64,000 nt of DNA from an uncultured Bacteroidales bacterium (lineage in GTDB: Bacteria; Bacteroidota; Bacteroidia; Bacteroidales; UBA932): positions 21,249-85,248 of the forward strand of contig CALUPK010000006.1 in assembly GCA_944322575.1 (NCBI GenBank). Reading direction: 5' to 3'. The first letter of the stretch is position 1, and each line of letters starts with the position of its first letter. Shown here in pieces: positions 30,517-39,621 of the stretch. The notes beneath the pieces are model-generated. The model saw nothing but the letters and a program-made list of their open reading frames with translations, did not search any database and was not told the DNA's origin. A program made the position numbers and the translations under genes.

Positions 30517-30547
30517 GATTCCCTGCGCGACAGGCAATAAGAAATTC

Positions 30548-30592
30548 AGCGGGACGACCGGAGTTATGCCGGTTGTCCCGCTTGTGTTTTTT
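30548..30592 (+). terminator. Intrinsic terminator after the DUF2795 gene
   Basis: AGCGGGAC (30548-30555) pairs with GTCCCGCT (30575-30582), with an inner ACCGG/CCGGT stem (30557-30561 / 3069-73 offset, i.e. 30569-30573), followed by TTTTTT at 30587-30592. It lies 15 bases beyond the convergent argH stop and may also stop that transcript, although the minus-strand T run is weaker. Confidence 0.85.
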
Positions 30593-30606
30593 GGGTGCCT
30601 GCAGGG

Positions 30607-31902
30607 TCAGCGGGTGAAGTCGGCGGCCGCGGCCATCTTGGCGGCGATGCGTTCGGTGGCGAGGTTGCCGATGCTGCCGGTGTGGGTGTGGCGGAGGGTG
30701 CGGTCTGCCTTGAAGGTGCCGGAGCTGACTTCCTGGCCGACGGCTTTGTAGGCGTCGCGGAAGGGGGTGCCGGAGAGGACCCTTCGGTTGACCTCCTCGA
30801 CAGTGAACAGGCAGTCGTAGAGCGGAGAGTCCATGATGTGCGCGTTGACGGTGATGTGCCCGAGCATATAGATGGTCATGTCTATGCAGCTGTGCAGCAG
30901 GCTCAGGGCAGGGAAGAGGATGTCCTTGAGCAGCTGGAAGTCGCGGTGGTAGCCGTGGGGCATGTTGCTGCACAGCATGGCCGTCTGGGTCCAGCAGGAC
31001 ATGATGCGGTTGCAGTTGCCGCGGATGATTTCCCAGACATCTGGATTCTTCTTGTGGGGCATGATGCTGGAGCCGGTGGTGAGTTCGGCCGGGAAGGAGA
31101 TGAATCCGAAATTGGGGCACATGTACAGGCAGCAGTCGGAGGCGAATTTATTGAGGGTAAGGGCAATGGAACCCATGGCGGCGGCTACTGCCAGTTCTGT
31201 CCTTCCGCGGCTCATCTGGGCGGCGACGGAATTATAGCTCATGCTGCCGAAGCCCAGCAGGCGGGTGGTCATCTCCCGGTCGAGGGGAAAGGAACTGCCG
31301 TAGCCGGCCGCGGACCCGAGTGGGTTCTGGTCCGCCACCCTGTACGCCCCGTGCAGCATGTACATGTCCTCTGACAGGGCTTCCGCGTAGGCTCCGAACC
31401 ACAGGCCGAAGGACGAGGGCATGGCCGTTTGTCCGTGGGTATAGCCCGGCAGGAGGATGTACTTGTGCTTCTCACTGAGTTCCTGAAGGATGGCAAACAG
31501 ATCCAGGACCTGCAGGCGGAAGCGTAGGATCTCATCCTTGAGGAAGAGCTTGATGTCCACCAGCACCTGGTCGTTCCTGGACCGGCCCGAGTGTATCTTC
31601 TTCCCGATGTCTCCTATTCTTCGGGTAAGGAGAAGCTCTATCTGTGAGTGTATGTCCTCGACATCGTCCTCCAAGGTGAACCTCCCTGCATCGATGTCCT
31701 TTTCAATTTCATCTAATCCGGATGTGAGAGCCGTCAGCTCACCGGCAGTGAGCAGCCCGATGCTCTCTAACATCCTGATGTGGGCCTTGGAACCCTGTAC
31801 ATCGTATTTCGCGAGGCGAAGGTCGAGGACCCTGTCGTCCCCGACCGTGAAATTCTCCACTGCTGCGGCAGCTTCAGCCCCTTTGCTCCAAAGTGTTGCC
31901 AT
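30607..31902 (-). CDS. argH: Argininosuccinate lyase
   Basis: 431 residues of the fumarase/aspartase superfamily. ArgH-specific blocks: DVEDIHSQIELLL, GRSRNDQVLVDIKLFLKDEI, PGYTHGQTAMPSSFGLW and the signature TGSSIMPHKKNPDVWE. It splits argininosuccinate into arginine and fumarate, the last step of the pathway. Its start overlaps the end of the upstream M20 gene by 29 bases, and it is the last gene of the arginine operon. Slightly shorter than the usual 450-460 residues at the C-terminus. Confidence 0.96.
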   Translation of the reverse strand: MATLWSKGAEAAAAVENFTVGDDRVLDLRLAKYDVQGSKAHIRMLESIGLLTAGELTALTSGLDEIEKDIDAGRFTLEDDVEDIHSQIELLLTRRIGDIGKKIHSGRSRNDQVLVDIKLFLKDEILRFRLQVLDLFAILQELSEKHKYILLPGYTHGQTAMPSSFGLWFGAYAEALSEDMYMLHGAYRVADQNPLGSAAGYGSSFPLDREMTTRLLGFGSMSYNSVAAQMSRGRTELAVAAAMGSIALTLNKFASDCCLYMCPNFGFISFPAELTTGSSIMPHKKNPDVWEIIRGNCNRIMSCWTQTAMLCSNMPHGYHRDFQLLKDILFPALSLLHSCIDMTIYMLGHITVNAHIMDSPLYDCLFTVEEVNRRVLSGTPFRDAYKAVGQEVSSGTFKADRTLRHTHTGSIGNLATERIAAKMAAAADFTR

Positions 31903-33031
31903 AATCTGTGATTTTAAGGAAATGTCTGATAAAGTGTATGTATGTTCTTATTCCGTCCTCTATCTCCCCGACCGTTACGTATTCGTCCCTGCGGTGCGAT
32001 CTGGACGAGTCTCCCGGCCCCATCTTCACCGCATCGCAGTCAAGCCGGATCCAGTCGGAGGCGGTAGGGGAGACGAATGTCTCTATGCCGAGTTCCGCGG
32101 CGCACCACAGCAGGGGGGATCCTGCCTTGGTGGAGGAGGACCTGTTGTGGAGATTCCGCGGGGTCAGACGGCTGAGGCATACCTCCTGGAGCATGTCCAG
32201 GATAGAAGAGTTGGTGTATTCTCCGTTGGGGCGTATGTCCACGACGAAGGAGCATCTGTCCGGAATGACGTTGTGCGCAGTTCCTGCCTCTATCTGAGTC
32301 ACATTGACGTGAACCTCCCCCATCAGCGGGGATATCCTGTCGAAACGGAAGTTCCTGATCCGGTTGATGTCGTCTATGGCAGTGTACAGGGCATTGACCC
32401 CTTCGTTCCTTGCAGCATGGCCGCTCTCTCCGGAGGCGGTTCCGTCGAGGACCAGAAGCCCGCGCTCTGCAATCGCCGCCTTCATTCCCGTAGGCTCTCC
32501 GACTATTGCCCAGTCAGGTGTGCGGAGGGTCAGGCCATTTTCGTACAGCAGTCCCTCCTTCAGAGCGGCACACACCGCTTCCATACCGCCGGAGCCGGAG
32601 CGCTCTTCCTCTACGCTGAGCACGAGCATGAGGTTGATCGGTAGCCGGAGACTGTAGAAATACCGCATGGCCGCAATCATGGCTACGGCGGAGGCTCCGT
32701 CATCATTGGCGCCTAACCCGGCCACTACTGAGGCAGCTTCCGGACAGGTGCCGGAGATGGACGGCCGGTAAGGGTCGAACGAGTAACCTTCGGCCGGGAG
32801 CACTGTGTCTAAATGGGCGCAGAGCATGAGTGTCTTTCTGTCCGGAGAATATCCGGAGTTGACGGATATGATGTTGTTCCTGAGCCGTACATGCATTATG
32901 CCTGCCGCGGTCAGAAAGTCCGAAACATGCTGGCTGACCTTCTCTTCCTCAAAGGAAGGGGAGGGGATGGCTATCATCTCCCTGAGCAGGCGGACGGCGT
33001 CGTTCAAAAGGGTACGGATATCTTCTTTCAT
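31874..33031 (-). CDS. argE: M20 family deacylase, probable N-acyl(succinyl)-ornithine deacylase
   Basis: 385 residues. Binuclear metal site residues are intact: LCAHLDTVLP (His, catalytic Asp), GLGANDDGASA (bridging Asp), VLSVEEERSGSGG (Glu pair). The dimerisation domain follows around residues 170-290. In this operon the enzyme should release the acyl group from N-acylcitrulline or N-acylornithine. Because the carbamoyltransferase here looks succinyl-specific, the natural substrate is likely the N-succinyl compound. It lies between argB and argH. Confidence 0.85.
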   Translation of the reverse strand: MKEDIRTLLNDAVRLLREMIAIPSPSFEEEKVSQHVSDFLTAAGIMHVRLRNNIISVNSGYSPDRKTLMLCAHLDTVLPAEGYSFDPYRPSISGTCPEAASVVAGLGANDDGASAVAMIAAMRYFYSLRLPINLMLVLSVEEERSGSGGMEAVCAALKEGLLYENGLTLRTPDWAIVGEPTGMKAAIAERGLLVLDGTASGESGHAARNEGVNALYTAIDDINRIRNFRFDRISPLMGEVHVNVTQIEAGTAHNVIPDRCSFVVDIRPNGEYTNSSILDMLQEVCLSRLTPRNLHNRSSSTKAGSPLLWCAAELGIETFVSPTASDWIRLDCDAVKMGPGDSSRSHRRDEYVTVGEIEDGIRTYIHFIRHFLKITDYGNTLEQRG

Positions 33032-33035
33032 AGGC

Positions 33036-33809
33036 TTAGAGTATGATTTTAGTGCCTTTGCCGCTCAGCAGGCTGCGGGCATGGGTGACTGTGATTTCAC
33101 TCACTCCGTTCCTGAGGGCCGCGAAGGCGTTGTCCAGTTTGGGTATCATGCCGGCGGCAATCCGGCCCTCGCTTCTGAGGGACCGGTACATCCCGGAGCT
33201 TATCTCCGGAATGACGCTGCTGTCATCGTCCTTGTCGTACAGTACGCCGTCCTTCTCGAAACAGTAGGTCAGGGAAATATGTCCGGTCTGGGCCAGAGCA
33301 GCGGCAAGGCAGGATGCGACGGTGTCGGCATTGGTGTTGAGCAGCTGTCCGCACCCGTCATGAGTGACGGCGCAGAACACCGGAGTGATTCCGGCCCGCA
33401 GCAGCAGTGTCAGGAAGTCCGTATTGATACTTTCCGGGGTTATGTCCCCCACGTACCCGTAGTCGACCGGGACGGGCGCTCTCCTGACAGCCCTGATAAG
33501 GTCCGCGTCGGCCCCTGAGACTCCTATGGCGCTGCATCCGAGGCTCTGCAGGCCGGCGACTATGTTCTTGCCGCACCATCCGGCGTAGACCATGACCACG
33601 GCTTTGAGGGCCTGCTCATCCGTGACCCGGCGTCCGTCCACCATGACAGGCTGCTGTCCGAGCGCTTTCTGCAGCCGGCTGGCCATCACTCCGCCTCCAT
33701 GTACCAGTATTTTCGCTCCGGAGATGGAGGCGAAGTCCTGGAGAAACCGCTGCAGCTGCTCCGGGGAGTCGATGATGCTGCCGCCTATTTTCACTATTGT
33801 GCAGTCCAT
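33036..33809 (-). CDS. argB: Acetylglutamate (acylglutamate) kinase
   Basis: 257 residues of the amino-acid kinase fold: TIVKIGGSII, KILVHGGGVMASRL, VMVYAGWCGKNIVAGLQ and GISGADAD-like GVSGADADLIRA, then the C-terminal GRIAAGMIPKLDNAFAALRNGV. It phosphorylates the gamma-carboxyl of N-acylglutamate. The Gly-rich loops and the Lys in KIGG are present. In a succinyl pathway it would act on N-succinylglutamate. Ends 4 bases before argE starts. Confidence 0.94.
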   Translation of the reverse strand: MDCTIVKIGGSIIDSPEQLQRFLQDFASISGAKILVHGGGVMASRLQKALGQQPVMVDGRRVTDEQALKAVVMVYAGWCGKNIVAGLQSLGCSAIGVSGADADLIRAVRRAPVPVDYGYVGDITPESINTDFLTLLLRAGITPVFCAVTHDGCGQLLNTNADTVASCLAAALAQTGHISLTYCFEKDGVLYDKDDDSSVIPEISSGMYRSLRSEGRIAAGMIPKLDNAFAALRNGVSEITVTHARSLLSGKGTKIIL

Positions 33810-33819
33810 GACCTGGGGC

Positions 33820-34779
33820 TTATTTGTCCATATTCAGGAGAATCTCTTTCAGGACTGTCTGCGCCGAGACTATGCGGTTGGCCGCCTCGGGGATGACTAT
33901 CGAGCGGGGGCTCTCTATCACCTCGTCGGTTACTATCATGTTCCGGCGCACCGGGAGGCAGTGCATGAACCAGGCATTGTCCGTGAGGGCCATCTTGGCG
34001 CTGTCTACGGTCCAGCTGCGGTCGGTGGACAGCACCTTGCCGTAATTGTCACCACTGTACGCCGCCCAGTTCTTGGCATAGATGAAATGTGCGCCCTCGA
34101 ATGCCTTCCGCTGGTCGTACTCTATGACGGCGCCTGCAGTGAAGGCGGGGTCGAGCTCATATCCGCGGGGATGAGTAATTACAAATTCGTATCCGGTCAT
34201 GCGGATTCCCTCCGCAAATGAGTTGGGAACGGCCTGTGGCAGGGCCTTGGGATGCGGGGCCCAGGTCATTACGACCTTCGGCCGTTCCACCTGCTTGTAC
34301 TCCTCGATGGTAATCAGGTCGGCGAATGTCTGGAGCGGATGCCTTGTCGCCGCCTCCATGCTTATGACAGGCTTGCCTGAGTATTTGATGAACTGGTTGA
34401 GAATGACTTCATTGTAGTCGTCCTCCTTGCTCTCGAAGCGGGCAAATGAGCGCACGCCTATGATATCGCAGCAGCAGCCCATCACCGGAATCGCCTCTAA
34501 CAGATGCTCAGGCTTGTCGCCGTCCATGACCACTCCGCGTTCGGTCTCGAGTTTCCAGGCTCCCTGGTTGATGTCTAAGACTATGACGTTCATGCCTAAG
34601 TTGAGGGCGGCTTTCTGGGTGCTGAGCCGGGTCCTGAGGCTGGAGTTGAAGAATATCATGAGCAGTGTCCTGTTCCGGCCGAGTTCCTGATCGGCGTAGG
34701 GGTGCTCCTTGACGTATTTAGCTTTGGTGCAGGCGGCTTTCAGATCGCCTATTTGCAGGATGGATGTAAATGTCTTCAT
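33820..34779 (-). CDS. argF': N-succinylornithine (acylornithine) carbamoyltransferase
   Basis: 319 residues of the transcarbamylase fold with the carbamoyl-phosphate motif as FNSSLRTRLSTQKA, HPLQTFADL and the C-terminal FMHCLPVRRNMIV. These are features of the acetyl/succinylornithine branch rather than classic ornithine carbamoyltransferase. Residue 90 is Pro (DGDKPEH, codon 34510-34512). In the Bacteroides fragilis enzyme Pro90 marks succinyl specificity, whereas the Xanthomonas acetylornithine enzyme has Glu there. It converts N-succinylornithine to N-succinylcitrulline in the cytoplasm. Located between argD and argB in the operon. Confidence 0.93.
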   Translation of the reverse strand: MKTFTSILQIGDLKAACTKAKYVKEHPYADQELGRNRTLLMIFFNSSLRTRLSTQKAALNLGMNVIVLDINQGAWKLETERGVVMDGDKPEHLLEAIPVMGCCCDIIGVRSFARFESKEDDYNEVILNQFIKYSGKPVISMEAATRHPLQTFADLITIEEYKQVERPKVVMTWAPHPKALPQAVPNSFAEGIRMTGYEFVITHPRGYELDPAFTAGAVIEYDQRKAFEGAHFIYAKNWAAYSGDNYGKVLSTDRSWTVDSAKMALTDNAWFMHCLPVRRNMIVTDEVIESPRSIVIPEAANRIVSAQTVLKEILLNMDK

Positions 34780-34783
34780 GGTT

Positions 34784-35932
34784 TTAATTTTTTTCGGTTG
34801 AGGTGAGTCTATGCCAGCTCTTCATGAATCCGGCGGCTGTCTCAAATGAAAGGGTGAGCGGAGGCAGGAGGCGTATGACGTCTGGTCCTGCCGCTCCGGT
34901 GAAAATATGCTCCCGCACTAAGAGCATCTCCCTGAGTCCGGAGTATTGCGGCTTGAGCTGCAGTCCGATCATCAGGCCGCGGCCGCGGTATTGCTCTAAG
35001 GCGGGGTCGAGCTGTCCGGAGGGATGAAAGGCTTTCAGGAAATATTCTCCTTTCTTGGCGGCATTCTCCACTAAATGTTCGTTCTCGATGACGTCGAGGA
35101 CGGCTAAGGCTGCGGTGCAGGCGAGGTGGTTGCCTCCGAAAGTGGTGCCGAGGAGGCCGTATGAGGGCTTTATCTCAGGAGAGATGATGACCCCTCCGAT
35201 GGGAAATCCGTTTGCCATGCCTTTGGCAGTGGTGACGATGTCCGCGCGGATGCCGGAGAACTGGTGGGCGAAGAACTTGCCGGTGCGGCCGTAGCCGGAC
35301 TGAACCTCGTCCACAATCAGTACAGCCCCGTATCTGCTGCACATCCGGCGGAGTTCCACGAGAAAAGCGTCATCCGGCATGTGTATTCCGGCCACGCCCT
35401 GTATTCCCTCAATGATGACACCGGCATAGGTGCCGCGGGAGAGTTCCCGCTCCACTGCCTCCGTATCGCTGAGGGAAATGTATGTGACCCTCTCCGCGGA
35501 GTTGAAGGGAGAGCGCAGCCCGGGGTTGTCGGTGACAGCCGCAGCTCCTGACGTCCTGCCGTGGAAAGAGCCGGAGAAGGCGAGTATCCGGCTTTTCCCG
35601 GTATGGAAGGAGGCCAGTTTCAAAGCGTTCTCGTTGGCTTCGGCTCCGGAGTTGCAGAGGAAGAGGGAGTAGTCGTCATAGCCGCTGGCCCGGCCTATCC
35701 TGTGCGCCAGTTCCTTCTGAAGGGAATTCTGCACGGCGTTGGAGTAGAAGCCGAGTCTGGCAAGCTGTTCCGAAATCATTCTGATGTAATGCGGGTGACT
35801 GTGCCCGATGGATATCACGGCATGGCCTCCGTACATGTCGGTATATTCGTTGCCGTCCTTGTCCCAGAGGGTGGTGTCTATCCCTCTGACGGGCTCGATG
35901 TCCCATAGTCTGTATACTTTGAACAGGTCCAT
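34784..35932 (-). CDS. argD: N-acyl(succinyl)ornithine aminotransferase
   Basis: 382 residues, class III PLP-dependent aminotransferase. GGHAVISIGHSHPHY, FLCNSGAEANENALKLA, FSGSFHGRTSGAAAVT, LIVDEVQSGYGRTGKFFAHQ and the PLP lysine in VTTAKGMANGFPIG are all present. It interconverts N-acylglutamate semialdehyde and N-acylornithine. Starts 24 bases after argC and ends 4 bases before argF'. A normal-length member. Confidence 0.95.
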   Translation of the reverse strand: MDLFKVYRLWDIEPVRGIDTTLWDKDGNEYTDMYGGHAVISIGHSHPHYIRMISEQLARLGFYSNAVQNSLQKELAHRIGRASGYDDYSLFLCNSGAEANENALKLASFHTGKSRILAFSGSFHGRTSGAAAVTDNPGLRSPFNSAERVTYISLSDTEAVERELSRGTYAGVIIEGIQGVAGIHMPDDAFLVELRRMCSRYGAVLIVDEVQSGYGRTGKFFAHQFSGIRADIVTTAKGMANGFPIGGVIISPEIKPSYGLLGTTFGGNHLACTAALAVLDVIENEHLVENAAKKGEYFLKAFHPSGQLDPALEQYRGRGLMIGLQLKPQYSGLREMLLVREHIFTGAAGPDVIRLLPPLTLSFETAAGFMKSWHRLTSTEKN

Positions 35933-35956
35933 ATAAATGCTGTTTAAAAGGTGAGG

Positions 35957-36928
35957 TTAAAATGCCGATGGCTTCAGTCTCAGGCCGCAGTCCTCGGGAA
36001 GGGAGAACATAAGGTTCATATTCTGTACGGCCTGCCCGGCAGCCCCTTTCAGCAGATTGTCTATGACTGAGCTGATGTGGATGTATCCGTCGTGCAGCTC
36101 TGCGTGCAGCAGGGCCTTGTTGGTGTTGACCACTTCTTTCAGGGATACCGGCTCTGCGGAGTGGAATACGGACGGGGAAGAGGAGTAGTACTCCTCGAAC
36201 AGTCTTACGTAAGCCTCTTCCGTCATTCCTCCGGCAGCGCGGGTGTAGACGCTGGCGAAGATGCCGCGGGTAAAGTCTCCCCGGAATGGTACGAAGTTGA
36301 CGGTCGGAATACTGCCCGAGATGCTTCCGATATTTTTCCGGATCTCGGCGAGATGCTGGTGGGAGAAGAGTTTGTAGATGGAGAGGTTGTTGTCCCTGTA
36401 ACTGAAATGGGTGGTCTCTCCGGGCTTTTTCCCTGCACCGGTGGAACCGGTGACGGCGCTTGCGTGTACTTCGTCCCGGATCAGTCCGTTTGCCGCCAAT
36501 GGAAGCAGGGCTAACTGGATGGCAGTGGCGAAGCAGCCGGGATTGGCGATGTTTCCCGCACTGCGGATTTCCCCGCGGGCACTCTCCGTGAGGCCGTAGA
36601 CGAAGTGCCTGCCGGCATAGTCCGCATCGAGCCGGAAATCATTGCCAAGGTCGATGATCCTGCATCCGCTGCCTATGCTGTGGGTGTCGATGAACTCCCG
36701 CGAGAGGCCGTGTCCCAGGCAGAGAAAGAGTACGTCCGGATCATTGAGCTCCGTCCCGAAGCACAGGTCGGTATCTCCTATGAGGTCCCTGTGGACTGAT
36801 GTCACGGGCTTCCCGTCGGCCGAGGTGGTGAGGACTGAGACGACATCCGTCTCGGGATGGTGGAGCAGTATCCTCAGCAGCTCTCCTCCGGTGTAGCCGG
36901 TACCTCCTGCTATAGCTGCGCGTATCAT
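35957..36928 (-). CDS. argC: N-acetyl(acyl)-gamma-glutamyl-phosphate reductase
   Basis: 323 residues. N-terminal NAD(P)-binding motif GGTGYTGGELLRIL; DVLFLCLGHGLSREF; active-site Cys in NIANPGCFATAIQLAL; GSTGAGKKP; and the C-terminal His region IFASVYTRAAGG. It reduces the acylglutamyl phosphate made by ArgB to the semialdehyde used by ArgD. Ends 24 bases before argD and begins 2 bases after argG. Confidence 0.95.
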   Translation of the reverse strand: MIRAAIAGGTGYTGGELLRILLHHPETDVVSVLTTSADGKPVTSVHRDLIGDTDLCFGTELNDPDVLFLCLGHGLSREFIDTHSIGSGCRIIDLGNDFRLDADYAGRHFVYGLTESARGEIRSAGNIANPGCFATAIQLALLPLAANGLIRDEVHASAVTGSTGAGKKPGETTHFSYRDNNLSIYKLFSHQHLAEIRKNIGSISGSIPTVNFVPFRGDFTRGIFASVYTRAAGGMTEEAYVRLFEEYYSSSPSVFHSAEPVSLKEVVNTNKALLHAELHDGYIHISSVIDNLLKGAAGQAVQNMNLMFSLPEDCGLRLKPSAF

Positions 36929-36930
36929 GG

Positions 36931-38139
36931 TCAGTCTGCTGTTTTTATGATATCGGTTCCGTTGACGCTGTAGTAGATTTTCAGCGGGTTGGCGAGCACC
37001 TTAGTGAATCCGACCACGTCGGCGCCTGTGTAGGAGCGGTTGATCTCTCCGTAGGTGCCGAACTTAGAGCTCATAAGGTCATGTGCGCTGCTGCATCCGA
37101 GTACGGAGAAGCTGTAGGGCCGCAGTCCGACTTCCACCTCTCCGCTTACCTTCTGCTCCATGCTGTCCATCATGGCTTCCATATCCCTCATGACAGGATC
37201 TAAGTACATGGCTTCATGCATCTGCTGTCCGTACCAGCCGGCTATCTGATCCTTCCAGTAGAGCTGTCCCTTTGTGAGCACGTGCTTCTCGAGCAGGTGG
37301 TGTGCCTTGATCAGAATGAGAGGGGCTGCGGCCTCGAAAGCCACTCTTCCCTTTATGCCGATGATGGTGTCTCCGACGTGGATGTCCCGTCCGATACCGT
37401 AGGGGGCGGCTATAGCGTGCAGCTCCTTGATCAGCTCCACCGGGTCCATCTTCTTGCCGTTCAGGGATACCGGCTCGCCCTTTTCAAAACCGATGCGGAC
37501 GTGTTCGCTGCCGTGCTTTGTCACCTGCACCGGGTAGGCCTCCTCGGGAAGCCATCCGTCAGAGGTGAGGGTCTCCACGCCTCCTACGCTGGTGCCCCAC
37601 AGACCCTGGTTGATGGAGTATCTGGATTTCTCCCAGGAGTAATCGAAGCCATGTGCGGCAAGATAATCTATCTCTTCCTGACGGGTGAGGGACTTCTCGC
37701 GTATGGGGGCGATAATCCTGATATCGGGAGACAGGATTTCGAAGACGATGTCGAAGCGGACCTGGTCGTTCCCGGCTCCGGTGCTGCCGTGCGCTACGCT
37801 GCCTGCACCTGTCCTGCGTACATGCCTGTACACCTCGAGGGCCTGGAAAACTCTCTCGGAACTGACGGAAAGGGGGTAGGTGGCGTTTTTGAGGATATTG
37901 CCGAATATAAGATACTTAAGCCCTTTTTCGTAGTAGGTGTGCGAGGCGTCTACAGTTACGTGGGATGCGGCTCCCAATGCTATGGCCCTGGCCTCGATAG
38001 CCTTGACCTCGCTGTCGGAAAATCCGCCTGTATTGACCGTGATGGTATGGACCTCGAGTCCCTTTTCGTTTTTGAGATACGGGACACAGAAGGAAGTGTC
38101 CAGTCCGCCGCTGAATGCGAGTACTACTTTGTTGTTCAT
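36931..38139 (-). CDS. argG: Argininosuccinate synthase
   Basis: 402 residues. ATP-binding motif VLAFSGGLDTSFCVPYL, the citrulline/aspartate-binding AHGSTGAGNDQVRFD, and FDYSWEKSRYSINQGLWG are diagnostic. It joins citrulline and aspartate to form argininosuccinate. Its ATG overlaps the stop of the upstream acetyltransferase gene in an ATGA arrangement, so translation of the second gene in the operon is likely coupled to the first. Confidence 0.97.
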   Translation of the reverse strand: MNNKVVLAFSGGLDTSFCVPYLKNEKGLEVHTITVNTGGFSDSEVKAIEARAIALGAASHVTVDASHTYYEKGLKYLIFGNILKNATYPLSVSSERVFQALEVYRHVRRTGAGSVAHGSTGAGNDQVRFDIVFEILSPDIRIIAPIREKSLTRQEEIDYLAAHGFDYSWEKSRYSINQGLWGTSVGGVETLTSDGWLPEEAYPVQVTKHGSEHVRIGFEKGEPVSLNGKKMDPVELIKELHAIAAPYGIGRDIHVGDTIIGIKGRVAFEAAAPLILIKAHHLLEKHVLTKGQLYWKDQIAGWYGQQMHEAMYLDPVMRDMEAMMDSMEQKVSGEVEVGLRPYSFSVLGCSSAHDLMSSKFGTYGEINRSYTGADVVGFTKVLANPLKIYYSVNGTDIIKTAD

Positions 38140-38726
38140 GATGCTGATTGTTTTTTCGTTTTATGAATGTTTTTTATTGTCCTTATGCGGATGTGTTCGA
38201 ACGGGTCGTAGAGCAGGCCGGTGCACAGGCACATACGGAAACCGTTCTTTTCCAGGATAGGGTAGTTTCTGCAGCCCCGGCAGCCTTTCCAGAACTCCGG
38301 ATCGCCGGTGAGTTCGGAGAAGGGTACGGGTCGGAATCCCATCTCGTAGTTGATCTTCATCACAGCGGATCCTGTGGTGATGCTGAATATCCTGGCGAAG
38401 GGGAACAGCTCGCGGGAGAGCAGGAAGACCTTCTTCTTAATCCTTTTGGCCAGTCCGATTCCCCTGAACTCGTGAGCGACAATGAGGCCGGAATTGGCTA
38501 CGTACCTCTTGCCTTCCCACGACTCAATGTAGGAGAATCCGGCGAACCTTCCGTCTTCGGTGACGGCTATTACGGCTTTCCCGGCCTGCATTTTTCCGAG
38601 GATATATTCGGGAGTTCTCTTTGCGATGCCAGTACCTCTCTCCTGTGCGGAGATGTACATCTCATCGCAGATCTCCTGCGTGAAACGGTAGTGGCTGCTG
38701 TCAGCCACCATGACGTCAATTCTCAT
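38136..38726 (-). CDS. GNAT acyltransferase heading the arginine operon, candidate N-acylglutamate synthase
   Basis: 196 residues of the GNAT fold: FAGFSYIESWEGKRYVANSG, then the acyl-CoA-binding motif VAHEFRGIGLAKRIKKKV (RxxGxA-type). As first gene of a complete arginine operon with no other argA or argJ, the obvious role is the first step, acylating glutamate (by analogy with the succinyl pathway, probably from succinyl-CoA). The C-terminus has four cysteines, C149, C152, C166 and C168, in a CxxC-x13-CxC pattern that could bind metal; this is unusual for GNAT proteins. Overlaps argG by 4 bases. Confidence 0.8.
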   Translation of the reverse strand: MRIDVMVADSSHYRFTQEICDEMYISAQERGTGIAKRTPEYILGKMQAGKAVIAVTEDGRFAGFSYIESWEGKRYVANSGLIVAHEFRGIGLAKRIKKKVFLLSRELFPFARIFSITTGSAVMKINYEMGFRPVPFSELTGDPEFWKGCRGCRNYPILEKNGFRMCLCTGLLYDPFEHIRIRTIKNIHKTKKQSAS

Positions 38727-38836
38727 TTTTCAATAATAGGTGTTTGGAGTAAATAAATACACGAAGCCCCTAATGGCAAGACAAACCGCGATTGTCGATT
38801 GCAATCAGAAAACCTCGCTGTGTCAGAGGAAGTATG

Positions 38837-38947
38837 GGAGGGGGTCCGGAAGCCGTTACCCTCCTAAATTCGGACGAGAGCACAGGTGGACTCAGCATGG
38901 TGCCGGATGCGCCTTGCAGAGAAATTGAATGCTGTTATGTCACCTGT
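38837..38947 (-). ncRNA. Structured leader of the arginine operon (candidate attenuator)
   Basis: Several perfect complementarities lie in the leader (forward coordinates): 38882-38888 with 38941-38947 (7 bp, ACAGGTG/CACCTGT); nested 38893-38898 with 38929-38934 (6 bp); then 38844-38848 with 38871-38875 (GTCCG/CGGAC) interleaved with 38837-38842 with 38859-38864 (GGAGGG/CCCTCC). The last two are either a pseudoknot or alternatives. A further short stem CCTC/GAGG followed by TTTT (minus strand, 38829-38809) is terminator-like but weak. The first two stems lie within a 30-codon ORF rich in Arg codons. I do not recognise it as a known riboswitch class. Confidence 0.5.
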
Positions 38948-38956
38948 ATAAGTCAT
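38864..38956 (-). CDS. Candidate arginine leader peptide (30 aa)
   Basis: ATG at 38956 to TAG at 38866-38864. The peptide has Arg at positions 15, 16, 18 and 29, with the run SARRIRHH encoded by AGG CGC ATC CGG CAC CAT. The ATG lies 9 bases after an exact -7 box, so it would be at the extreme 5' end of the arg operon mRNA, an arrangement shared with other predicted leaderless genes in this window. Placement before a complete arginine operon, Arg codon clustering and flanking inverted repeats argue for a stalling leader peptide. It is short, and chance cannot be excluded without homologues. Confidence 0.5.
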   Translation of the reverse strand: MTYTGDITAFNFSARRIRHHAESTCALVRI

Positions 38957-38965
38957 TATTGAGCG

Positions 38966-38998
38966 CAAATATATTGTTTTTTTCCAAAACCGCGCAAC
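38966..38998 (-). promoter_or_regulatory. Promoter of the arginine operon
   Basis: On the minus strand, GTTG (38998-38995), a 21-base spacer, then TATATTTG (38973-38966), an exact -7 box. Transcription should start near 38960, about 234 bases before the GNAT start codon, so the mRNA has a long leader. A second TTTG at 38988-38985 is too close (11 bases) to serve as the -33 box. Confidence 0.6.
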
Positions 38999-39039
38999 AG
39001 TATGACTCTGTTTTTAATGAAAAAAATAGTCCGGCCGCT

Positions 39040-39621
39040 TTAGAAGAGGCTTGCGATATTCGATACGAATAGCTTGACGGCGATGGCAAGGAGAATGATT
39101 CCGAAGAACTTGCGGAGGATGTATACTCCGCCCTTACCGAGTATTCTTTCGGCTAAGTTGAGGTACTTGAGAACGAAATATACTATCACCATATTGAGCA
39201 GTATCGCAGTGATGATGTTCTCCACATGGTATTCGGCTCTGAGGGAGAGGACAGTGGTGAGTGCTCCCGCTCCGGCTATCAAGGGGAAGATGATGGGCAC
39301 TATGGTGGCGGAGCCGCCCGGGCCGTTGTATTTGAAAATCTCTATGTCAAGAACCATCTCGCAGGCCAGAATGAGGATGATAATCGAACCGGCCACGGCG
39401 AAGGACTGGATATCTACTCCGAAGAGGGACAGGATGGCATCTCCGAGGAAGAGAAACAGCAGGAAGATGATGAATGAGAAGATGGCTGCCTTGCCCGGCT
39501 CTACCTTCAGGCCTTTTTCTTTCAGTCCTATTATGACGGGTGTGGAACCGGTGATGTCTATTACGGCAAACAGTACCATGAAGGCGCTGAGAATCTCTTT
39601 GAAGCTGAAATTTAAATCCAT
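39040..39621 (-). CDS. MarC family integral membrane protein
   Basis: 193 residues with six hydrophobic spans. The N-terminal MVLFAVIDITGSTPVIIGL and the middle FPLIAGAGALTTVLSL are MarC (UPF0056) signatures. Despite the name, these inner-membrane proteins are not proven to give antibiotic resistance; transport function is unknown. The gene is monocistronic, with its own minus-strand -7 box TACTTTTG at 39659-39652 and a 6-bp hairpin at the start of the leader. Confidence 0.9.
   Translation of the reverse strand: MDLNFSFKEILSAFMVLFAVIDITGSTPVIIGLKEKGLKVEPGKAAIFSFIIFLLFLFLGDAILSLFGVDIQSFAVAGSIIILILACEMVLDIEIFKYNGPGGSATIVPIIFPLIAGAGALTTVLSLRAEYHVENIITAILLNMVIVYFVLKYLNLAERILGKGGVYILRKFFGIILLAIAVKLFVSNIASLF

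Follow-up and report, generated by a model that had tools for sequence, protein, structure and literature searches.

A probable arginine attenuator with a CGA codon beside the leader stop, and a candidate second RNA element, upstream of an arginine operon in Bacteroidales

In ribosome-mediated attenuators such as those of the trp, his and leu operons, a short open reading frame (ORF) rich in codons for the end-product amino acid precedes the operon and is followed by structured RNA. Codon choice within such leaders has been reported to be biased (PMC1183508), and a test in a his leader indicated that CGA is poorly read compared with the other arginine codons (PMC4046918). Within the Bacteroidota, a report on Flavobacterium psychrophilum regards leader-peptide attenuation as likely ahead of amino-acid operons (PMC9723704), and short ORFs resembling leader peptides were described in Bacteroides thetaiotaomicron (PMC7366714). 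An earlier reading of the DNA studied here, based on its letters and ORFs only (the sequence-only reading), had held that such attenuators are little described in this phylum, which, in view of the F. psychrophilum report, is only partly correct. The candidate leaders of F. psychrophilum share with the present locus the phylum, the promoter box and the association with amino-acid operons; they differ in that arginine is not named, while pheA and hisG appear among the structured 5' elements whose conservation extends to other genera, and the sole mention of arginine in the main text of that report concerns cyanophycin (PMC9723704). Judged by titles and the beginnings of abstracts, none of the papers listed by our searches of the open-licence literature describes an arginine leader peptide or arginine attenuator in Bacteroidota or alongside ArgR. 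Leader-peptide attenuation as such is thus already known, and the second hairpin presented below is undescribed as far as literature searches show.

The locus lies within a 64,000-nucleotide stretch of DNA, here called the window. It resembles the trp, his and leu systems in its short ORF with end-product codons ahead of the operon, in the structured RNA that follows and in a biased codon choice, here for CGA (for codon bias compare PMC1183508). It is unlike them in that arginine would be the amino acid sensed, that the putative control codon stands beside the stop codon, that the mRNA appears to start almost at the initiation codon and that the window has no clear terminator. Two of the features expected of an attenuator, namely end-product codons clustered in a leader ORF and conservation of both the ORF and its control codons in relatives, are present. 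Overall, the comparisons set out below support arginine-tRNA-dependent attenuation, and we consider it highly probable that this stretch acts in cis as an arginine attenuator, substituting for ArgR.

The operon itself, GNAT-argGCDFBEH, extends from 38726 to 30607 on the minus strand, and its gene order, as proposed by the sequence-only reading, was borne out by ORFs and family matches. The first gene (38136..38726) is GNAT-like, with a PF13508 match below the Pfam cut-off, and is followed by argG, argC, argD, an argF-like gene, argB, an argE-like gene and argH (30607..38139, minus strand). When these were checked against Pfam and NCBIfam, argG, argC, argB and argH scored above an NCBIfam cut-off, while argD, argF and argE matched the expected families with scores below the cut-offs; the argF product was closest to N-acetylornithine carbamoyltransferase, again below the cut-off. 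On the other side of the intergenic stretch lies marC (39621-39040, minus strand). In the GNAT-like protein the cysteines C149, C152, C166 and C168 are invariant across 16 aligned relatives; the protein could be the acetyl- or succinylglutamate synthase that is otherwise missing.

The intergenic stretch carries a -7 box, TATATTTG, which matches TAnnTTTG exactly (38966..38973, minus strand), and, after a gap of 9 nt, the start of a 30-codon ORF at 38956 (MTYTGDITAFNFSARRIRHHAESTCALVRI; 38864..38956, minus strand). This ORF has arginine at codons 15, 16, 18 and 29 and ends with TAG at 38866-38864. Codons 15-18 form an internal cluster, AGG CGC ATC CGG (38903..38914, minus strand), and two perfect inverted repeats, given here without an estimate of chance occurrence, lie within the ORF: ACAGGTG/CACCTGT (38947-38941 with 38888-38882) and CAGCAT/ATGCTG (38934-38929 with 38898-38893). 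All of these elements had been described by the sequence-only reading and were found where it had placed them. It had overlooked the conserved CGA at codon 29 (38870..38872, minus strand), which a single further codon separates from the stop; the window leader has no other CGA. In F. psychrophilum, a box of this type spans -12 to -5 (PMC9723704); by analogy, transcription in the window would start near 38961, leaving a 5' untranslated region of about 5 nt.

Comparison of related upstream regions for an arginine-rich short ORF had been suggested by the sequence-only reading. We gathered those of GNAT orthologues from 83 loci of the window's family, 28 loci of the order and 78 usable contigs out of 80 named ones. 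Eight of these 189 loci duplicated others in the set, and their removal left 181 distinct upstream regions. A strict finder demanded TAnnTTTG followed by 3-12 nt, ATG or GTG, and 8-45 codons with at least two arginines, at least one of them among the last five codons. It detected a leader and no adjacent argR in 90 of the 181 regions, an adjacent argR only in 39, neither in 52 and both in none. Within the window's family (n = 83, before removal of duplicates), 47 loci had only the leader, 6 only an adjacent argR, 30 neither and 0 both; the corresponding counts were 1, 20, 7 and 0 in the order set (n = 28) and 48, 13, 17 and 0 among the named contigs (n = 78). In the order's other families as sampled, a leader passed the strict finder in only 1/28 loci. 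The same finder fired on 0/5919 random 420-nt segments of the window, on 21/5720 mononucleotide shuffles of the upstream regions and on 1/286 antisense regions. Leader ORFs were also present in records of Proteiniphilum, Fermentimonas and Flavobacterium, so that the arrangement extends beyond a single family. Leaders whose final five codons include no arginine (L030, L031, L032), with a single arginine (L158, L159) or with variant boxes (L019, L046, L078) escape the strict finder and were recognised by eye or with a looser finder. From this comparison we conclude that the short arginine ORF at 38956-38864 is real and, together with its arginine codons, conserved.

Several lineages showed peculiarities of their own. 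The Flavobacterium leaders at L214, L216, L218, L219, L220, L222 and L226 have S-R-T and PEVR motifs in common, start 4-5 nt after the box and lie about 230-240 nt from the GNAT gene; at L214 and L216, a TTTGTCC/GGACAAA hairpin stands between leader and GNAT gene. At L003, L004, L005, L020 and L026, each leader has two arginine clusters, one internal and one terminal, both with an RTCCGA stretch. In the g14 relatives L006, L007, L015 and L021, and in L162, the arginine leader is followed by a further conserved block, consisting of a hairpin with the loop GATTTCAGCTC and the hairpin GGGACAGCAGAATCCC, which is seemingly a lineage-specific RNA of its own. In favour of leader-peptide control in the family, His-rich short ORFs (at least four histidines) occurred within 400 nt upstream of the presumed first his gene at 5/20 family loci (L308, L312, L321, L322, L323), a count that is indicative only as the first gene was taken to be the longest ORF of 275-310 amino acids and was at times another his gene.

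Position and codon choice were quantified with the looser finder, which accepted the box TAnnTTT[GA], demanded at least one arginine in the last six codons, retained the most arginine-rich candidate and was applied to all loci with a GNAT match. It returned 107 dereplicated leaders, and removal of six by eye (L016, L086, L100, L150, L246, L202) left 101. These are 11-32 residues long and differ widely in length and sequence among genera, with compact relatives retaining only the terminal arginine (e.g. MIILRNILVRI). Their stop codons lie 56-251 nt (median 124) from the GNAT start. In 79/101 leaders, the start codon follows the box at a distance of 7-9 nt, suggesting that the mRNA is probably nearly leaderless, a claim that depends on this peak within the 3-12 nt admitted by the finders. 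The last arginine codon is located 1-3 codons ahead of the stop in 92/101 leaders, where the finder had demanded one in the last six. CGA accounts for 171/361 arginine codons of the leaders, as compared to 36/939 in the GNAT genes downstream at the same loci and 5/346 in 17 genes of the window, and the pair GTC-CGA occurs 80 times across the 101 leaders. The internal cluster is encoded by different codons in several relatives and is absent from the compact leaders. Hence, the proposed arginine-codon leader before the operon is upheld, arginine codons included, but not the assignment of control to the internal AGG-CGC-x-CGG cluster: as judged from the comparison, the conserved control codons are the CGA beside the stop. 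CGA at this position would provide a sharp, testable prediction of the starvation-sensing arginine codon in the phylum.

ArgR (PF01316) was found in 8/119 genomes of the family, and none of the GNAT genes in those genomes is preceded by a leader; in one of them (G084), argR sits on a different contig from its two GNAT genes. The window genome (G000, 92% complete) gave no PF01316 match, while 9/14 control genomes did. For genomes picked by named locus, 39 leader-bearing ones were chosen, of which 38 were examined, along with 11 leaderless ones; ArgR was present in 2/38 leader-bearing genomes versus 10/11 without leader. Three of the 38 loci also belong to the first orthologue set, and the two ArgR tests thus overlap slightly. 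The exceptions are L188 and L203, with both leader and ArgR, and L169, with neither. Leader and ArgR therefore nearly exclude each other. Compared with ArgR-controlled arg operons, the target operon is the same, since argR directly precedes the same GNAT gene in the 39 regions counted above; the difference is that the window genome is without an ArgR match and that leader and adjacent argR never co-occur in the 181 regions. If our reading is correct, many Bacteroidota would regulate arginine synthesis by a cis switch of about 230 bases, while their relatives use the ArgR repressor.

We then considered the RNA behind the leader. A stop-codon hairpin, predicted from sequence and folding, pairs GGAGGG (38864-38859) with CCCTCC (38842-38837; whole element 38837..38864, minus strand), and an interleaved alternative would pair GTCCG (38875-38871) with CGGAC (38848-38844; 38844..38875, minus strand). 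Both had been proposed as stems just past the stop codon. Their coordinates are correct, but the GTCCG arm is located inside the ORF, where it encodes Val28-Arg29, and the first G of the GGAGGG arm doubles as the third base of the stop codon. A short CCTC..GAGG-TTTT stem is likewise present at 38829-38809 (minus strand), as had been described. A strong hairpin at the leader end proved to be common: across the 101 leaders, the strongest hairpin with its 5' end at this site averaged -14.1 kcal/mol versus -8.3 kcal/mol in dinucleotide shuffles, and 44/101 leaders versus 13/202 shuffles reached -15 kcal/mol or lower, which supports a strong structure at the end of the leader. Folding z-scores agree, with medians of -0.75 and -0.77 around the stop versus -0.05 to -0.53 elsewhere.

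Evidence from covariation, which had also been suggested as a check, was modest. The nearest relatives share the GGAGGG/CCCTCC hairpin with the window. In the window's group, interleaved pairing was noticed by eye, and a stretch complementary to the stop-hairpin arm recurs, again by eye, in 18/18 sequences, which had been selected by the pattern TAGGAGGG. In a sister subgroup of 23 sequences, the arm with the arginine codon, CCGAAGAT, pairs with ATCTTCGG around the stop hairpin in 85% of cells, with 2/8 pairs of this outer stem changed on both sides, while the stop hairpin itself is invariant. A third helix, GGAAATTC/GAATTTTC, shares bases with the second arm; it was paired in 95% of cells, shuffles were equally good, and it was not retained. 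Compensatory changes are few, overlapping arms occur in one subgroup, and many pairs never vary.

Terminators were sought in two ways. A program-based scan found no U-tract terminator in the window. Our own scan gave a single window candidate, an extended form of a second hairpin (38761..38818, minus strand; -20.9 kcal/mol) followed by GTATTTATT, which is a possible terminator not detected by the program; as the yield of our scan was barely above background (43/101 leaders versus 164/505 shuffles), we refrain from assigning a terminator to the window. In several genera (L015, L023, L192), a U-tract directly follows the leader-end hairpin. Hairpins of -12 kcal/mol or lower were present in 66 leaders, and 19/101 combined this with a T-rich tail versus 4/202 shuffles; at a threshold of -6 kcal/mol, the numbers with a T-rich tail were 37/101 and 39/202.

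The second hairpin, which the sequence-only reading had overlooked, lies at 38776..38802 (minus strand). It is 27 nt long, follows the pattern GCAA-UN-GACAA-UCNMGGU-UUGUC-UUGC, was recognised by sequence comparison and is common to many of the closest relatives of the window. Rfam returned no match at the gathering threshold in the window, including T-boxes, riboswitches and other curated cis-regulatory motifs, and none at E up to 5 in 38700-39040. With at most one mismatch, the pattern occurs in 6/119 family genomes, once in each, and its backwards control matched none of the 119. When 250 genomes of g22, a sister genus within the family, were searched with up to three mismatches, at least 62 had an exact match, and among the matches listed one had a single mismatch and seven had two; this dominance of exact matches indicates that true copies of the hairpin hardly vary. 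A covariance model gave strong E-values only in the genera g1 (that of the window), g22 and g2, and weaker matches comprised six at E 0.00125-0.065 among 198 genomes of the order and two, at E 0.022 and 0.061, among the 119 family genomes. At all 82 element loci examined, some of which represent the same place more than once (all loci together gave 70 distinct sequences), a GNAT gene lies downstream on the same strand, its start codon 26-157 nt (median 61) after the 22-nt core of the element. The hairpin may be regarded as a candidate for a new, taxon-restricted and nearly invariant regulatory RNA linked to one operon. Five loci (L164, L166, L246, L248, L250) have the hairpin, close to the inferred 5' end or at it, but no conserved arginine leader, which suggests that the hairpin has a function of its own. 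When the window leader was folded with the ribosome at four different positions, the second hairpin persisted in all of them, and it cannot alone account for switching.

Other roles for this element were considered and set aside. Pairing of a leader CCGA with a UCGG loop of the hairpin in compact leaders was dismissed, as CAGG, GAGG, AAGG and TAGG loops cannot pair in this way. A coding role as I-D-N-x-G-L-S was rejected as well: L164 and L166 have it in different frames with respect to the nearest start, the codon CNM alters the amino acid, and most third positions are invariant, in part because of selection by the pattern. At these two loci, a GCAAGTCAGAC[CT]GACAAA stretch lies downstream of the hairpin and might act like an expression platform by competing for its 3' arm.

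According to the mechanism we favour, transcription would begin a few bases ahead of the ATG and the ribosome would translate the short ORF almost leaderlessly. With ample Arg-tRNA, it would read the CGA codon or codons and depart at the stop, whereupon the stop-codon hairpin would form and operon expression would fall, through termination of transcription where a genus has a U-tract and, in the lineage of the window, probably likewise, perhaps via the extended second hairpin. With Arg-tRNA scarce, the ribosome would pause at the poorly read CGA, and its footprint would extend over the stop codon into the hairpin's 5' arm, so that no hairpin could form and the arg genes would be expressed. The 27-nt hairpin, nearer to the first gene, would act as a second cis element in the lineage of the window. 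Conservation, codon choice and position, the hairpin and the near-exclusion with ArgR were observed, from which transcription start, stalling, termination and the response to arginine are inferred. Against this account speak the lack of a U-tract terminator in the program-based scan of the window, the near-background yield of our own scan, the scarcity of compensatory changes, the persistence of the second hairpin at all four ribosome positions, the two leader-bearing genomes that also encode ArgR (L188, L203) and the 52 of 181 upstream regions with neither leader nor adjacent argR.

Control might instead act on translation, with the stalled ribosome opening the RNA for translation of the first gene and the second hairpin gating its start. 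The lack of a clear terminator in the window would fit, as would the spacing of the second element, which at the shorter end of its range places the GNAT start within gating distance, and the finding that only 19/101 leaders have a T-rich tail although 66 reach -12 kcal/mol; but the U-tracts right after the hairpin in several genera (L015, L023, L192) argue for termination, and the leader stop is mostly too distant from the GNAT start for the stop hairpin to hide it directly, so that we regard translational control as possible but doubtful. Masking of a Rho loading site by a ribosome paused near the stop has a precedent in E. coli TnaC, where a ribosome waiting near the stop codon does just this. 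The location of the control codons at the stop in 92/101 leaders would suit masking of the RNA immediately behind the ORF; this model leaves the common strong hairpin superfluous and sits poorly with the U-tract terminators of some genera, and it appears rather improbable. That the ORF encodes a small protein with a function of its own, or an arrest peptide whose amino-acid sequence is what is recognised, seems very improbable: a repeated V-R-R ending and arginine-rich sequences could be taken in its favour, but length and sequence are very variable between genera, and what recurs is arginine, chiefly as CGA, a codon choice that should make no difference to a protein function.

As for the second hairpin, it could function not as RNA but as a DNA operator or as a conserved spacer. 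Its core is nearly invariant, and the pairs thus largely evade a covariation test: 8/13 never vary in 54 sequences, an alignment (A3) picked by an exact pattern that dictates its columns 15-16, 18-24 and 27-36. The unequal halves (GCAA-UN-GACAA versus UUGUC-UUGC), however, are more easily reconciled with a bulged hairpin than with a palindrome in DNA, and one core pair is changed on both sides, from C-G to U-A, in 1/54 sequences (L013); both observations favour RNA. Furthermore, some 160 bp separate the element from the inferred start site upstream of it in the window. We consider a role as DNA operator or spacer unlikely. As an RNA, it might be a minimal arginine-binding element. In HIV TAR and 7SK RNA, the arginine sandwich motif consists of an A-U pair, a bulge beginning with U and a next-but-one A-U pair (PMC6189040). 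The second hairpin has the same order of pairs and bulge, a resemblance in secondary structure only; organism and role differ, the shared bases of bulge and upper stem are fixed by the search pattern, and the second bulge base is variable (T 48, C 3, G 3; n = 54). That the hairpin is an arginine sensor with a sandwich-like bulge, and the operon thus equipped with two stacked arginine sensors, we regard as very unlikely; if so, the leader peptide would serve to sense charged tRNA, and the RNA to sense free arginine or an arginine-rich nascent peptide.

Finally, we asked where the operon came from. The seven other genomes of the window's genus gave no match to the GNAT gene and none to argG, and the closest relatives of the window's GNAT (81-83% identity) are in a g22 genome and in a record of Candidatus Cryptobacteroides; by inference, g22 would be Cryptobacteroides. 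For the neighbouring marC, identity to two genus mates is 90% and 77%, and the three g22 genomes sampled gave no match. In the window, the arg operon and its leader lie between a DUF2795 gene and marC (30517-39039). The g11 genome at L345 has, in succession, matches to the window's genes for an ABC-transporter ATPase and a cobalamin adenosyltransferase, to its DUF2795 gene, to marC and to the next two genes, with the DUF2795 gene and marC as direct neighbours and no arg operon between them. Since different genes stand behind marC in the genus mate L343, the empty site is demonstrated in g11 and not in g1. Taken together, the arg operon, with leader and hairpin, was probably inserted between the DUF2795 gene and marC by horizontal transfer. 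A self-contained switch can travel with its operon, and this seems to have been the case here.
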